The position numbers and the translations under genes are program-made. 64,000 nucleotides of DNA from Marivirga aurantiaca (GTDB lineage Bacteria > Bacteroidota > Bacteroidia > Cytophagales > Cyclobacteriaceae), in the NCBI RefSeq assembly GCF_016679925.1, contig NZ_JAEQBW010000002.1, positions 186,001 to 250,000 on the forward strand, read 5' to 3'. This document shows positions 43,921-50,264 of this stretch, piece after piece. Below the pieces are notes generated by a model that was not told the DNA's origin, did no database searches, and worked only from the letters and a program-made list of their open reading frames with translations. Position 1 is the first letter of the stretch. Every line of letters begins with the position of its first letter.

Positions 43921-44002
43921 GGCTTCGTAGCTCTTCCGATAGCTATCGGAAGAATAGAGCATCCCGCTAGGGCGGGAAGGTTACAGGATAGAGTCCTGTC
44001 AC
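43921..44002 (+). pseudogene. Degenerate tRNA-Arg copy 1
   Basis: Begins exactly like the intact tRNA (GGCTTCGTAGCTC). The D loop is then enlarged by the 20-base palindrome CTTCCGATAGCTATCGGAAG (43933-43952). The anticodon arm is replaced by TCCCGCTAGGGCGGGA (43962-43977), with no anticodon loop, and the T-like arm is CAGGA/TCCTG. The 3' acceptor half CGAGGTC is missing. It cannot be a working tRNA, though each arm still pairs. Confidence 0.8.
43933..43952. repeat. 20-bp palindrome in the D arm of tRNA-Arg copy 1
   Basis: CTTCCGATAGCTATCGGAAG is its own reverse complement. A decayed version sits at the same place in copy 4 (about 44584-44602). The GATAGCTATC centre is shared with the palindromes at 42960 and 59215. 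Confidence 0.9.
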
Positions 44003-44041
44003 AAGCAAGCTTTAAAAGAATAAATAAAACAGTCAATATAT

Positions 44042-44115
44042 GGCTTCGTAGCTCAATTGAATAGAGCACCTGATTACGGCTCAGGAGGTTGCAGGTTTGA
44101 ATCCTGCCGAGGTCA
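44042..44115 (+). tRNA. tRNA-Arg (anticodon ACG)
   Basis: The only intact member of four tandem copies. The acceptor GGCTTCG/CGAGGTC has two G-U pairs, the D stem is GCTC/GAGC, the anticodon stem CCTGA/TCAGG holds loop TTACGGC, and the T arm GCAGG TTTGAAT CCTGC is canonical. The discriminator is A and no CCA is encoded. ACG reads CGN Arg codons after A34 is changed to inosine. Confidence 0.93.
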
Positions 44116-44119
44116 CTAA

Positions 44120-44147
44120 AGCTTGCTCTAACCAGCAGGCTTTTTTT
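44120..44147 (+). terminator. tRNA-Arg terminator
   Basis: GCTTGCT pairs with AGCAGGC (one G-U) around CTAACC and is followed by seven T residues. Near-identical copies follow degenerate tRNA copies 3 (about 44474-44501) and 4 (about 44688-44714). Confidence 0.85.
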
Positions 44148-44152
44148 ATGTC

Positions 44153-44395
44153 ATGAGTTTTCAAGTTTATATATTATACAGTAAAAAGCTTGGTCAATAT
44201 TATGTAGGTCAAACTTCCGATATAGAAGAGCGACTCATAAGGCATAATCTAGGTCATGGGAAGCATACAAGGAAGGGCGTTCCCTGGATTTTGGTTTGGA
44301 GCATTGAGGTAGCTGATCGGAGTGAAGCAATGAAATTAGAGACAAAGATAAAGAAACGAGGAGCGGCACGTTTCTTAAAGGATTTACCTTCATAG
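44153..44395 (+). CDS. GIY-YIG endonuclease-domain protein
   Basis: An 80-residue single-domain protein. The GIY-YIG signature appears as VYILYSKKLGQYYVGQ, followed by the catalytic Arg region IEERLIRHN, a short HTRKGVPWILVWS strand and the metal-binding Glu region RSEAMKLETKIKKRG. All expected active-site residues are present. This UvrC/homing-nuclease fold cuts DNA. The gene starts 5 bases after the T tract of the tRNA-Arg terminator, inside the repeated unit, so its own promoter is unclear and read-through from the tRNA is possible. A decayed copy of its first codons follows tRNA copy 3. Confidence 0.9.
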   Translation: MSFQVYILYSKKLGQYYVGQTSDIEERLIRHNLGHGKHTRKGVPWILVWSIEVADRSEAMKLETKIKKRGAARFLKDLPS

Positions 44396-44399
44396 CTAT

Positions 44400-44467
44400 G
44401 GCTAGGTAGCTCAATTGAATAGAGCATCCCGCTATCAGCGGGAAGGTTGCAGAATTCTGCGAGGTCA
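44400..44467 (+). pseudogene. Degenerate tRNA-Arg copy 3
   Basis: The D arm (GCTCAATTGAATAGAGC) equals that of the intact gene. The anticodon arm is replaced by TCCCGCT ATC AGCGGGA with a 3-base loop and no anticodon. The T arm has lost its loop, leaving the palindrome GCAGAATTCTGC, and the acceptor pairs only partly (GGCTAGG against GAGGTC). The following terminator and an ATGTCCAAAATTTCAAGTTT stretch match the region behind the intact tRNA, including the start of the GIY-YIG gene. Confidence 0.8.
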
Positions 44468-44571
44468 CTATAAAGCTTGCTCTAACCGGCAGGCTTTTTT
44501 TATGTCCAAAATTTCAAGTTTACCTATTCTGTGGTTTGGGTCGTTTTCTAAATGATCTATCTTCAAGCTAT

Positions 44572-44682
44572 GGCTTCGTAGCTCTTCCGATAGTTATGGG
44601 AAGAATAGGGCATATGATTACGGCTCAGGAGTTAGCAGAGCCTGTGCCGAACTTACTCGGCATTTGAATCCTGCCGAGGTCA
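44572..44682 (+). pseudogene. Degenerate tRNA-Arg copy 4
   Basis: Retains the acceptor halves GGCTTCG and CGAGGTC and the anticodon stretch GATTACGGCTCAGG, but has two insertions. The D loop holds a decayed CTTCCGATAGTTATGGGAAG, and the T arm is split after GCAG by about 24 bases containing the hairpin TGCCGA/TCGGCA. At 111 bases it is too long for a tRNA. A weakened terminator copy follows. Confidence 0.8.
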
Positions 44683-44835
44683 CAAAAGCTTGCTCTAACC
44701 GGCAGTCTCTTTTTGTGGATGGAGTTATTACTTGCAGCTATCACTATGAAAGTCCTCTAAATGTTTACTTAACCCACTAATTAGGGATAATGAAGAAAAG
44801 AATGTTTTTATGAAATTGTGTAGAGTTAACAATAT

Positions 44836-45867: not shown

Positions 45868-47397
45868 TTATGGACAGTTGGCATATAATGTATAGAGATT
45901 AGAAATAGGAATAAAGTTTGTTTCGAAATTATTACCATAAATAGTTCTGATGTCAACACTTTCTCTAGCCCATTTCCAGTCCAGAGGAGTAATAAGGCCA
46001 TTTCTAAAAGTTTCTCCATCTTTAGTGAAAGTTGATGGCGGGAAAAGATTGCCCATAGTCAAATCATAATCCGGACCACCCTGCACAGCAAGGTTTGCTG
46101 AAAATGGATTGGTTAACCAGAAAGTGAAATCTGTTGGAGCACTTTCAATAGTAACAGTTTTCTCAATACCTACGTCTGAATACCCGCTACATCTAACATT
46201 CACGAATTTTTCATTGATAGGAAATGCATCCCTGGTTTCCGGATAAACAACTACAATAGTATTGCCACCTGACTCTGTTACGCTGGCGGCATCACCTGAT
46301 ATCACATAACCGGTTCCTGGTAACCACATTTTGAAAGCGTGATTATATGAACCGCCTCTTGCTAATGGCTCAAATTTAAAATTTAAATAACCTGTGTTAA
46401 TATCAGTATAAGTTGTGGTTCTCACTATAAAGTCATTATAGTCCAGATCATTTTCCTGTAGTTCCCCAGGCTCTTGTTCATCATTTATATCTTCCCAGGA
46501 AATATTATATGAGTTTTCAAGGAAGTCAAAATCACCTTGGCAATTTTCATTTAAGTGCAGGTAACCATCCTCTTCATTGATCATGTCTACTCTGTCCAGA
46601 CTGATAGTTCCTGAGAATAATATGCCATTTATATATAATTCCACATAATAAGATTGCTCTTCAGTTGGCATATTTGCATCATAAGGGAATTTCAGACAAA
46701 GGAGCTCATTAGTTTCATCATCGCTTTCAAAATCACCATCTGCTGAACCACTCCATATTAAATCCGTTTCTGTTGTTTCTTCCGAATTAGGATAAATGAA
46801 AGCCTCTAAGGTTGCAACTTCATGACCTGCTTCAGGTTGACAGAAATTAGCGAATACACAAAGGTTTTTGACTTCCTTCAGTTCAATATTCCAGAATACG
46901 AAACCAAATTGCGGTGGAGTGAAATCTTCCACACAAAGCACTTCCATGTTATATTCTATTTTTCTGTATTGCTCAACCTCAAAATCAATAGGTAATGCGT
47001 GGTTGACAAATTTCCCAAATTCACTTCCCTCCATTGGAGTAGCGAATAGCGGGTTGTCATCTTCATCATATAACTGGCAGCTGGTAACAGTATAGCTTCC
47101 TGGTCCTAATTCAATTAAATCAGTTTTAAAGTTACTTTCCCATTGCTTTATGTCTACTTTATAGCTGTTTCCGCTAATTTCCACTAAAGCATAAGCCGCT
47201 AAAGAAATATCACAATCTGACACACCGTTTTCATGTTCGTCTCTCTGTGAGGTTTTACTATCATCTACCATGTCTCCGGTGAGTATTAGTTCTATACCGT
47301 TTTTCTCGTCTACAGTAATTTCATCCTGCTGACAAGAACACATAAAAAACATTGCCATGGAAGCCAGGCATATGTTTAAAGTTTTAAAGTTTTTCAT
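45868..47397 (-). CDS. DUF4842/LruC-like lipoprotein, paralogue 1
   Basis: A 509-residue lipoprotein (signal MFFMCSC, then QQDEI). The mature N-terminal half has strand-rich segments shared with its neighbour (VDIKQWESNFKTDLIELGPG, YTVTSCQLYDEDDNPLFATP). The C-terminal half holds the LruC/DUF4842 signature NISWEDINDEQ, NDLDYNDFIVRTT and HAFKMWLPGTGYVISGD. The Asp-rich DYNDF part is probably a calcium-binding site, by analogy. It is very similar over its whole length to the protein encoded at 47608-49164, so this is a tandem duplicate. The role of the family is unknown; a surface location is likely. Confidence 0.75.
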   Translation of the reverse strand: MKNFKTLNICLASMAMFFMCSCQQDEITVDEKNGIELILTGDMVDDSKTSQRDEHENGVSDCDISLAAYALVEISGNSYKVDIKQWESNFKTDLIELGPGSYTVTSCQLYDEDDNPLFATPMEGSEFGKFVNHALPIDFEVEQYRKIEYNMEVLCVEDFTPPQFGFVFWNIELKEVKNLCVFANFCQPEAGHEVATLEAFIYPNSEETTETDLIWSGSADGDFESDDETNELLCLKFPYDANMPTEEQSYYVELYINGILFSGTISLDRVDMINEEDGYLHLNENCQGDFDFLENSYNISWEDINDEQEPGELQENDLDYNDFIVRTTTYTDINTGYLNFKFEPLARGGSYNHAFKMWLPGTGYVISGDAASVTESGGNTIVVVYPETRDAFPINEKFVNVRCSGYSDVGIEKTVTIESAPTDFTFWLTNPFSANLAVQGGPDYDLTMGNLFPPSTFTKDGETFRNGLITPLDWKWARESVDIRTIYGNNFETNFIPISNLYTLYANCP

Positions 47398-47607: not shown

Positions 47608-49164
47608 TCATGCACCTTCCGGACAATTAGCATATAAATCATCTGTATTGGAAATAGGAGTGAAGTTCGTTTCAAAATCAACACCATAGATAGTTCTGAT
47701 ATCTACATTTTCTTGAGGCCATTGCCAATCAAGAGGTGTAACTAGCCCATTCCTGAAAGTTTCACCATCTTTGGTGAAAGTTGATAGCTCGAACATGTCA
47801 CCTATCATCAGATCATAAACCGCATCGCCTGCAACTTCCAAATTAGCAGTGAAAGGATTTACCAGATAATAAGTAAATTCTTCGGGAGCATTTTCTATTG
47901 TTACTGTTCTCTCTACACCAGTTCCAGTTGTTTCACCACAGATCACGTTGATGAAACTTGCATTTGGATTAAATGCTTGATTGGTATTGGAGTAAACTGT
48001 TACTACAGTATTACCACCTTCTGTTAAAACGCTTTCAGCATCACCTGATATCACATAACCAGTTCCAGGGAACCACATTTTGAAAGCGTGAGTATAAGTA
48101 CCTCCCCTTGCCAATGGCTTGAACTGAAAATTTAAATGACCAGTAGTCATATCAGTATTTACTGTAGTTTGGAGTACAAAATCATTGTAATCAAGGTCAT
48201 TTTCCAAAAGGTCTTCCCCATCCGGAGCTACATCGTCATTGATATCTTCCCATGAAACATTATATGAAGTTTCCAGAAAATCAAAATCTCCATCGCAATC
48301 TTCATTCAGGTGCAGATAGCCATACTCTGAATTGATCATATCCACTCTGTCGAGATAAATTGTTCCTGAAAATAAGGATCCGTTTATGTAAAGATTTACA
48401 TAATAAGATTGCTCTTCGGTTGGTTGATTAGCGTCATAAGGGAATTTAAGGCAAAGTAACTCATTGTCCTCTGTTTCACTTTCATAATCACCATCAGCTG
48501 ATCCACTCCAGATGAGATCTTCATCGCTGGTATTTTCAGCATCAGGATAAACATAAGCTTCTAAGGTAGCTACTTGATGTCCCATATCAGGTTCGCAGAA
48601 GTTAGCAAAAATACAAAGATTTTTCACCTCCTTAAGGCTAATGCTCCAGGATGTAAAGCCAAACATTGGTGGGGTGAAATCTTCCACACAAAGCACTTCC
48701 ATATCGTACTCTATTTTCCTGTATTGCTCAACTTCAATGTCAATAGGTAAGGGTTGAGAAACAAATTTACCGAATTCACTTCCCTCCATCGGGGTTGCAA
48801 ATATTGGATTATCATCTTCGTCATATAGCTGGCAACTTGTTACGGTATAACTTCCCGGATCTAATTCAATTAAATTTGTTTTGAAGTCATCGCCCCATTG
48901 TTTAATGTCGATTTTGTAATCGTTGTCATTAATAGTCACTATGGCATACGATGCATAAGAAAGATCACATCCTCCTTCTTCTACGGTAGGAAAGTCCGGG
49001 TCTGCTCTTTGTGAGGAATTGCCATCGTCTACCCTGTCACCTGCAAGTATTAATTCAATTCCATTTTTCTCGCTCACCTCTATGTCGTCTTGTTGACAGG
49101 AGTACATGAAAACTATTGCCATTGATGCCAGGCATAAGTTGAAAAGTTTATTAAGGTATTTCAT
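47608..49164 (-). CDS. DUF4842/LruC-like lipoprotein, paralogue 2
   Basis: A 518-residue lipoprotein, starting at the ATG at 49164 that gives the signal LASMAIVFMYSC. The frame remains open 32 codons further, but those residues do not resemble a signal. Domain layout equals paralogue 1: a shared N-terminal region (YTVTSCQLYDEDDNPIFATP), then NVSWEDINDDVAPDG, NDLDYNDFVLQTT and HAFKMWFPGTGYVISGD. Differences cluster in short loops. A long palindrome-rich intergenic region precedes it. Confidence 0.75.
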   Translation of the reverse strand: MKYLNKLFNLCLASMAIVFMYSCQQDDIEVSEKNGIELILAGDRVDDGNSSQRADPDFPTVEEGGCDLSYASYAIVTINDNDYKIDIKQWGDDFKTNLIELDPGSYTVTSCQLYDEDDNPIFATPMEGSEFGKFVSQPLPIDIEVEQYRKIEYDMEVLCVEDFTPPMFGFTSWSISLKEVKNLCIFANFCEPDMGHQVATLEAYVYPDAENTSDEDLIWSGSADGDYESETEDNELLCLKFPYDANQPTEEQSYYVNLYINGSLFSGTIYLDRVDMINSEYGYLHLNEDCDGDFDFLETSYNVSWEDINDDVAPDGEDLLENDLDYNDFVLQTTVNTDMTTGHLNFQFKPLARGGTYTHAFKMWFPGTGYVISGDAESVLTEGGNTVVTVYSNTNQAFNPNASFINVICGETTGTGVERTVTIENAPEEFTYYLVNPFTANLEVAGDAVYDLMIGDMFELSTFTKDGETFRNGLVTPLDWQWPQENVDIRTIYGVDFETNFTPISNTDDLYANCPEGA

Positions 49165-50264
49165 AATTTTGGTTTTTAGATTAAAAAGTTTGTGATTTTT
49201 TTTCGTTAAAAAAGTAATAAATATTACATTAAAATCGGGCGATCTTATTGAAGGTTTCATGATGTGATTAGTTTTAAATAGTTGAAAATACGGTGTTAAG
49301 TGCTCAATTGATGTAATTGCGCATTTATTACCCTCTGTTGTATATAGTTGGACGTACGTTTTTTTGATTTGTTCCCATATATTCTTTTATTTTTAAAAGA
49401 ATTCACTATGATTTATATGATCCACACACCCTGTATTTGTATTTTTTAGGATTTAACCTAATTAGTTATAGGATTATTTAATGATTAAGAGGGTGTATAA
49501 GTGCTTTTGTAAATAAATATATTAAATATATAACTAAAAGGTACATTTAGTTTTGTGCTAGTTAACCTTTAAATCAAGGTTTCCTCTTTCATCAACATTT
49601 GAATGATGCGGTATTAACCTGAGTTCGATTTTAAATATTAGTAAGAATTGCTGTAAGTCGTTCCCGCTAGGGCGGGACTGGCTATTTCGGTCCCGATGCA
49701 TCGGGATTACATTTTTCATAAAAAAGAGAATTAGCTTGTGCCGCCACAGCGGTATCCGTAATCTCATTGTGTTTAGTATGAGATACCGCATAAATAAAGA
49801 CTTTTTGAAAAAGTAAGTCTTAATTTTGCGGCATAGCCTGCCCCGTATACGGGGACGCTATCATTAATTGTCGAACTTAGGTTATTAGTCAACATGGGCT
49901 TTCCGATAGAGTTTGTGAATAGTGGGAGAGTTTTAACTGCTTAGCTTGAGTGGATAAAAGATAGTGTCCTGCTCTATAGGTTAAATACAGATAAGCTGGA
50001 GTTATAATTTTTCTCTTATCTTATGAGGGCGGACAGGAGAGGGGGTATGACAAAGTGGGCCTTCTATTTGAGTAGTTGATTTGTATTTCAACTGATAAGT
50101 TATTAAAACTGGCTGCTTGCTATGAAGCATAGTAGCCAGAGGATACGTTGTACGTGCCGATTTTATTCCCTTTAATTCTAATACTGTATCCTGACACATT
50201 GGTGGACAAGCTTGAGAAAAGTTAACCAATGCATTTTTAAATAGAGATGATAAAACCGGCTTAA
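49165..50264. other. Palindrome-rich 1.1 kb intergenic region
   Basis: No frame here has support. It contains TCCCGCTAGGGCGGGA (49662-49677), identical to the palindrome in tRNA-Arg copy 1. It also has TCCCGATGCATCGGGA (49691-49706), the perfect 14-base CCCCGTATACGGGG (49841-49854), and a longer imperfect hairpin around 49760-49790. Two minus-strand frames (49558-49791 and 50002-50229) are open but unlike known proteins, and the first runs through two of these palindromes. Confidence 0.6.
49662..49706. repeat. Pair of short palindromes
   Basis: TCCCGCTAGGGCGGGA and TCCCGATGCATCGGGA stand 13 bases apart. The first has exactly the sequence that replaces an anticodon arm at 43962-43977. Confidence 0.9.

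Follow-up and report, generated by a model that had tools for sequence, protein, structure and literature searches.

The window, a 64,000-nucleotide stretch of a Marivirga aurantiaca contig, carries at 43921-44714 a locus best read as a small mobile gene that resides at a tRNA gene and is repeated there in tandem, with homing-like mobility as the best-fitting explanation (probability of about 0.6). The unit would consist of the tRNA, its terminator, a gene for a single-domain GIY-YIG nuclease, and a disabled copy of the same tRNA with its terminator. The occurrence of this tRNA-linked arrangement across Bacteroidota suggests that mobile genes bound to tRNA genes form a type not described so far. 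A preliminary description made from the letters of this DNA was confirmed in what it observed and is partly supported in its overall interpretation; the hairpin swaps in the tRNA copies, the position of the first copy in the native slot, and the scale of the coupling go beyond it.

An array around one intact tRNA-Arg gene

Repeat comparison placed four tRNA-Arg(ACG)-like copies within 43921-44683 (Table 1), in the order pseudo-tRNA, tRNA-terminator-nuclease, pseudo-tRNA-terminator-remnant, and pseudo-tRNA-terminator. The preliminary description had likewise reported four units, the first without a terminator, with copy 2 alone being a tRNA and a complete GIY-YIG gene starting 5 bases past its terminator. 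Copy 2 was the sole tRNA in the stretch recognized by ARAGORN and, at the gathering score, by Rfam (ends at 44116 and 44115, respectively), which rules out an ordinary tRNA cluster. The decayed nuclease gene suspected behind copy 3 was also recovered, and its end is kept as well: the segment aligns to the start and end of the intact gene with a score of 18.8 versus a maximum of 5.7 in 200 shuffles. The proposal that degenerate tRNAs are left behind stood insofar as the copies are disabled, but random decay is not what disabled them, since a hairpin has taken the place of the anticodon arm in particular. In copy 3 the hairpin TCCCGCTATCAGCGGGA (44427-44443) stands for parent nucleotides 28 to 44, i.e., the whole 17-nt anticodon stem-loop, and the defects of the tRNA copies are largely such swaps and not simple decay. 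The ATG of the nuclease gene lies 5 nt past the T-run of the copy-2 terminator, and, judging by this gap, the gene may be transcribed from the tRNA promoter by read-through.

Table 1. Features of the tRNA-Arg array (positions in the window)
Feature	Position	Strand	Remarks
Copy 1, pseudo-tRNA-Arg in native tRNA slot	43921-44002	+	No proper terminator
Copy 1 hairpins	43932-43953; 43962-43977		D arm; anticodon-arm position
Copy 2, intact tRNA-Arg(ACG)	44042-44116	+	ARAGORN; Rfam RF00005, 61.5 bits
Terminator-like hairpin and T-run 3' of copy 2	44118-44147	+	
GIY-YIG nuclease gene, 80 aa	44153-44395	+	PF01541, E 3e-16
Copy 3, pseudo-tRNA-Arg	44400-44468	+	Hairpin for anticodon arm; shortened T arm
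Terminator-like copy 3' of copy 3	44472-44501	+	
Decayed GIY-YIG gene	44502-44571	+	Start and end retained, most of the middle gone
Copy 4, pseudo-tRNA-Arg	44572-44683	+	Anticodon loop sequence retained
Copy 4 hairpins	44583-44604; 44645-44662		D arm (imperfect); extra, 5' of T arm (by eye)
Decayed terminator copy 3' of copy 4	44685-44714	+	

Elsewhere in the window, a tRNA-Glu gene is located at 15-87, and a second tRNA with an equal Rfam score starts 164 bp upstream, beyond the window. Two minus-strand ORFs at 45868-47397 and 47608-49260 (509 and 550 aa) are clearly similar to each other and apparently represent a tandem duplication (by eye).

In the congeners the corresponding site was empty. 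A single, intact tRNA-Arg(ACG) without nuclease was found at all eight readable syntenic loci (L131 to L138, with the tRNA inside a contig and 330 bp shown behind it), and the same divergent outer-membrane gene lies upstream of the tRNA in each of them. The tRNA and this gene were used as synteny anchors because DUF6929 gave no match at E 1e-30 in nine congeners. A further locus (L139) begins at a contig end, and congener G001 gave no tRNA-Arg(ACG) match. Four intact tRNAs, the pattern that the preliminary description had set against its own reading, were not found. Both empty and filled tRNA-Arg sites exist among the window genome and its congeners, and given the empty site in eight of eight, the insertion in the window genome is therefore recent; the tRNA end as landing site, proposed earlier, fits. 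By eye, copy 1 is preceded by a sequence homologous to the one that immediately precedes the single tRNA of congener G008; a disabled copy thus holds the native slot, with the intact tRNA second in the row.

The genome of the window (G000; 5.01 Mb, 38 Rfam tRNA matches) has only one intact match to the window tRNA-Arg(ACG). At another location, three nuclease genes spaced 392 bp apart stand behind an intact tRNA-Asn, with a hairpin-bearing tRNA copy after each of them and a decayed nuclease at the end; the same hairpin type replaces part of the anticodon arm in these copies. At tRNA-Asp, the order is similar (disabled copy, tRNA, terminator, nuclease, disabled copy), and the array is spread over two contigs, the ends of which overlap by 87 identical bases.

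The nuclease and its tRNA neighbors across genomes

The window protein belongs to the GIY-YIG superfamily by its PF01541 match. The top solved relatives of the nuclease profile were BH0048 (1zg2, E 1.7e-17) and EF2693 (1ywl, E 3.9e-15), proteins of similar size, and by these nearest solved sequence relatives it is classified as a UPF0213-type single-domain GIY-YIG protein, a type also named YhbQ. In an alignment of 14 sequences, Y6, Y17, G19, R27, H31, E63, and K67 were invariant; Y6, Y17, G19, R27, and E63 are the GIY-YIG catalytic residues. Unbroken proteins mostly have 78 to 112 aa, with little beyond the catalytic domain. Among 17 between-genome nuclease pairs with measurable dS, 16 gave dN/dS values of 0.05 to 0.22, and the exception (0.69) was a pair with almost no differences; by these ratios the nuclease is under purifying selection. 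The window protein had no match in PHROGs or among the PADLOC defence models. Two and one of 14 relatives matched phrog_5123 and phrog_314 (E 5.5e-4 and 1.8e-4), respectively, and two PDC-S14 candidate models of PADLOC matched one of the 14 each (best E 8.6e-5). A match to TIGR01453 reached 22.9 bits, below the cut-off of 56.05. A phage or plasmid vehicle found no support, as only 12 phage records, at 38 to 47% identity, and no plasmid matched.

The search of 39 genomes (including that of the window) with the window protein gave 78 matches in 22 genomes, 72 of them outside G000 and forming 57 clusters (loci). An intact tRNA (41 loci) or tmRNA (2 loci) was located on the same strand within 450 bp upstream in 43 of the 57, where chance adjacency of ca. 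0.17% per gene predicts ca. 0.1 (38 Rfam tRNAs in 5.01 Mb), so that the enrichment of GIY-YIG genes of this type next to tRNAs on which the preliminary description had staked its reading is huge. The remaining 14 loci comprise three with an intact tRNA within 65 bp downstream, four with truncated tRNAs upstream (L056, L066, L075, and L078), two that are close to a contig end and have a tRNA copy on the downstream side (L049 and L085, both by eye), and five with no recognized tRNA trace (L076, L079, L088, L100, and L101).

A census of PF01541 proteins in 12 genomes separated a group A from a sister group B, which forms its own clade. In group A, 25 of 35 loci are preceded within 450 bp by an intact tRNA or tmRNA on the same strand; in group B, none of the 11 loci is next to a tRNA. 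This census leaves out UvrC-size rows, those of about 470 and 736 aa, and the 258-aa G007:C81; the fragment L122 stays ungrouped. Among the ten group A loci without an intact upstream tRNA within that distance, L073 has one downstream, L123 has a tmRNA at 638 bp, L056, L108, L075, and L120 are near contig edges, and L078 has a truncated tRNA; at L076, L088, and L101 no tRNA was found beside the nuclease. The survey and the sister-group control together rule out a chance neighbor.

The same coupling appeared in broader scans. With a profile of the Val-linked clade, the best 80 of 165 loci in named genomes ranged from Algoriphagus and Cyclobacterium to Flavobacterium, Chitinophagaceae, and Bacteroidales. 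The nuclease lay within 600 bp behind a same-strand tRNA in 66 of these best 80 (median, 47 bp), mostly Val(TAC) (50 loci) or Arg(TCT) (10 loci), and none was antisense to its tRNA; after dropping five loci from genomes already among the relatives, the proportion was 64 of 75. A class sample of 68 loci, drawn from the better-scoring of 139 matches outside G000 (duplicate L148 dropped), was typed as A or B by the nearest known sequence, a typing that is uncertain under 70 bits. A-type loci had a tRNA upstream in 29 of 56 cases and downstream in 6, B-type loci in 0 of 12. Five of the 21 A-type loci without an intact tRNA alongside were at contig edges, and 6 of 10 inspected loci of this kind carry tRNA fragments (by eye). 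At the level of sequence, these surveys show the nuclease group to be coupled to tRNA genes, the nuclease gene standing beside a conserved gene with locus specificity, as is expected of a homing endonuclease.

The protein clades followed the tRNA type. In a tree of 89 loci with 14 labels (each locus of known tRNA type entered once, with some labels read by eye from fragments), 27 label changes were needed, compared with a mean of 64.8 for shuffled labels and 0 of 200 shuffles as low, although the tree has few columns and its deep forks are unresolved. Val (15 rows) required two changes and Met (15 rows) three; Arg (5 rows, 5 changes) and His (2 rows, 2 changes) were scattered, and tmRNA (5 rows) required three. 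In an earlier tree of 89 rows, in which some loci are represented more than once and from which rows under 60 aa as well as L122 are omitted, the three tmRNA-linked proteins formed one starred clade. The label counts show specificity of the protein clades for tRNA type.

Several related loci had other surroundings. GIY-YIG genes were found 112 to 638 bp behind tmRNA at L006/L123 (G000:C11), L102, L105, L118, L168, and L273, and in G000:C11 the gap between tmRNA and nuclease contains tandem hairpin-rich repeats. Inverted ends resembling CCCCGTAGGA / TCCAACGGGG flank related GIY-YIG genes without tRNA at L100 and L258, and at L088 and L162, also without tRNA, the left end of this type is visible; in L162 a recombinase-like reading frame follows the GIY-YIG gene (by eye). 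These four loci look like another cassette type. The B-type genes L003/L125 (G000:C7) and L002/L124 (G000:C22) are located between their own hairpin-rich repeats (by eye).

Disabled tRNA copies and dispersed hairpins

Copies behind the gene were searched for with the neighboring tRNA as query in 195 loci (64 from the relatives and the window genome together, 75 from the best 80 of 165 in the named scan, and 56 from the class sample), of which 55 lacked an intact upstream tRNA within 600 bp and 140 remained. A copy of the 3' part of the tRNA plus terminator was found 3' of the nuclease in 90 of these 140, and the other 50, some of them at contig ends, had no detectable copy. A perfect hairpin of at least 7 bp was present in 60 of 88 segments of testable length, versus 2.4 expected by mononucleotide shuffling. 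Among 78 segments with a stem of at least 6 bp, both flanks could be placed in 62, with the hairpin in the anticodon arm in 58 and in the T arm in 4; L068 and L249 are misplacements (negative length), the former counted among the 58.

The Val/Arg copies have, as a rule, the exact 17-nt stem-loop swapped. An identical 10 nt is lost in six Met-type rows, and L060 and L126 share the loss of 11 nt in their Asn copies. When the segment was delimited by its flanks only, which does not presuppose pairing, 47 of the 52 Val/Arg copies could be tested; 41 had a perfect hairpin, none an intact arm, and 6 something else, mostly imperfect hairpins (by eye). The hairpins share TCCCG..CGGGA or close forms, with 34 distinct sequences in 42 hairpin-bearing Val/Arg copies, a set whose pair counts are conditioned on pairing because it was restricted to copies with a hairpin. 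Identity of the Val/Arg copies to the parent was 36 to 42 of 41 to 42 positions in the 3' half and dropped to 1 of 25 at the 5' far end. This pattern of a near-parent 3' half and a decayed 5' half fits concerted evolution in which recombination takes place rightward of the hairpin, but selection may also have conserved the 3' half. Processing of the Val/Arg pseudo-tRNA in the manner of a tRNA is unlikely because the 5' acceptor half is lost. It is the spare copy that is altered in the anticodon arm, yet an intact tRNA persists in the array.

Hairpins of this family also occur away from tRNAs. The pattern TCCCGN5-12CGGGA was found 108 times in G000, compared with 10 for the reversed pattern, with examples in the window at 49600-49760 and at L301, L305, L307, L309, L013, and L018. 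Inside longer dispersed repeats, the hairpin sequence varies between copies and the surroundings are alike. In loci with a copy, their density was 6.9 per kb inside the tRNA copies versus 0.22 per kb outside them (ca. 31-fold). The pattern is also abundant in some genomes of the class sample that have no nuclease-profile match (G085, 42 versus 2 reversed; G068, 69 versus 11), and others are not enriched (G078, 8 and 9; G079, 16 and 17). Being dispersed, and enriched in some genomes without a nuclease match, the hairpins need not come from or serve the nuclease, and the idea that they are made only by the nuclease is unsupported. A RAYT origin found no support either, since none of three Y1_Tnp loci of G000 had a TCCCG-type hairpin within about 1.5 kb.

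Proposed homing-like mobility, its rivals, and known systems

Tandem arrays of two or three units made up 13 of the 57 relative clusters, with a spacing of 346 to 499 bp. Genomes G005 and G009 differ by one 390-bp unit at tRNA-Asn, between flanks that are 98.8% identical over 2.7 kb to the left and 91% identical to the right; the single G009 gene is a hybrid of two G005 genes (by eye), which suggests that G009 lost a unit by recombination. These comparisons show a change in copy number by whole units, and they uphold the earlier proposal that tRNA and nuclease gene are duplicated together as one unit. No integrase was found in the window array, and the units of the 13 tandem loci are too closely spaced to accommodate one.

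The nearest precedent is SegB of phages T4 and T6, a free-standing GIY-YIG homing endonuclease in a tRNA cluster (PMC13096335, PMC2988022), for which amplification of the tRNA plus nuclease unit is described as dependent on the nuclease and on recombination (PMC13096335). As described there, SegB shares with the arrays of the window group a GIY-YIG nuclease adjoining tRNA genes of many isotypes and tandem amplification of the tRNA plus nuclease unit by homologous recombination, and the catalytic Y17 and G19 of SegB bear the same numbers as the invariant Y17 and G19 of the window group. There are also clear differences. SegB is phage-borne, whereas the window group is chromosomal and its proteins, mostly of 78 to 112 aa, are little more than the catalytic domain; hairpin-swapped pseudo-tRNAs are absent from those descriptions of SegB, and cleavage, reported there for SegB, is a prediction for the window group. 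The window nuclease is SegB-like in arrangement and, by analogy, a candidate homing endonuclease that would cut at or near its tRNA gene, after which homologous repair would copy or multiply the unit, adding or removing whole units.

Within this homing-like reading, the hairpin could have been selected since it destroys the nuclease site in the spare copy, or the disabled tRNA arms may simply accept the dispersed TCCCG..CGGGA palindromes of the genome. As the only intact tRNA-Arg(ACG) stands between disabled copies, a deletion between copies 1 and 3 would remove the tRNA, and this loss would tend to preserve the array. Since the remaining intact tRNA would itself still be a target, the usual homing immunity is not explained. 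A bolder version, in which these are selfish genes throughout the phylum, with one clade per tRNA or tmRNA, a nuclease that recognizes anticodon-arm DNA, a hairpin that marks the copy as uncuttable, and an intact tRNA trapped in between, is tentative, and we consider it rather unlikely as a whole.

The hairpins themselves could be no more than REP-like invaders of neutral DNA, unrelated to the nuclease, in copies that just decay. This explanation concerns the hairpins only and is compatible with homing-like mobility; it has a real but minor chance of being correct, somewhat above that of the bolder version. TCCCG..CGGGA hairpins are indeed dispersed, vary within other repeats of the genome, and also occur in D and T arms of disabled copies. 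Their concentration within the copies (6.9 against 0.22 per kb) argues against it, as does the exact hit on the 17-nt anticodon stem-loop, seen with a perfect hairpin in 41 of the 47 Val/Arg copies that could be tested (none of which has an intact arm) and in at least two separate protein clades, together with the lack of hairpins near the three Y1 transposase loci of G000.

Whether the nuclease moves by homing at all was weighed against two readings that we regard as improbable. The gene might spread by other means and survive passively behind tRNA terminators, with the copies arising by tandem duplication and decay. At L066, L075, L078, L154, and L167, tRNA fragments starting near the anticodon arm precede the nuclease (by eye); integrases leave such fragments, which would make tRNA ends a busy insertion spot, and ordinary recombination was seen to change copy number in G005/G009. 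Against such a harbor stand the sister GIY-YIG group of similar size in the same census, which was never next to a tRNA (0 of 11), clades that mostly stay with one tRNA type, a copy that, where found, derives from the neighboring tRNA (which was used as the query), and Val/Arg copies that lose the same part. Slightly less probable still is a nuclease and hairpin pseudo-tRNA useful to the host, e.g., in regulating or repairing the tRNA locus, and not selfish. Strong purifying selection on the nuclease and the retention of a hairpin through changes of sequence (34 distinct in 42 Val/Arg copies) speak for such a function, and against it stand the absence of the nuclease from the locus in all eight readable congeners, the many tRNA types involved, and the frequency of tandem and decayed copies.

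Integrative elements that target tRNA genes with tyrosine integrases also duplicate the 3' part of the tRNA, with the crossover often in the anticodon loop. The arrays resemble them in the duplicated 3' part and differ in having no integrase, a spacing of only 346 to 499 bp, and a copy disabled by a hairpin. REP and other small palindromic repeats are likewise short, G+C-rich hairpins dispersed in the genome, but the hairpins described here sit exactly on tRNA arms, and no linked Y1 transposase was found. Among the papers listed in a literature search that covered mainly open papers, none describes such an arrangement in bacteria; a search for YhbQ with GIY-YIG retrieved no paper, and no tRNA-linked array was seen for the UPF0213/YhbQ type. 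In the GIY-YIG superfamily survey (PMC1564403), the passages that name tRNA do not concern tRNA genes.

These results give a common family of small bacterial nucleases a definite candidate target in the tRNA genes, and the isotype specificity of its clades is testable in vitro. They suggest a chromosomal, phylum-wide counterpart of the phage-like amplification of tRNA plus nuclease and provide a natural collection of tRNA gene copies with the anticodon arm exchanged at the same place in many genomes. The annotation of tRNAs is affected as well: ARAGORN names the hairpin-bearing tRNA-Asn copies of G000 (L126 = G000:C32; L008 to L010) tRNA-Gly(CCC), which are false tRNA calls.
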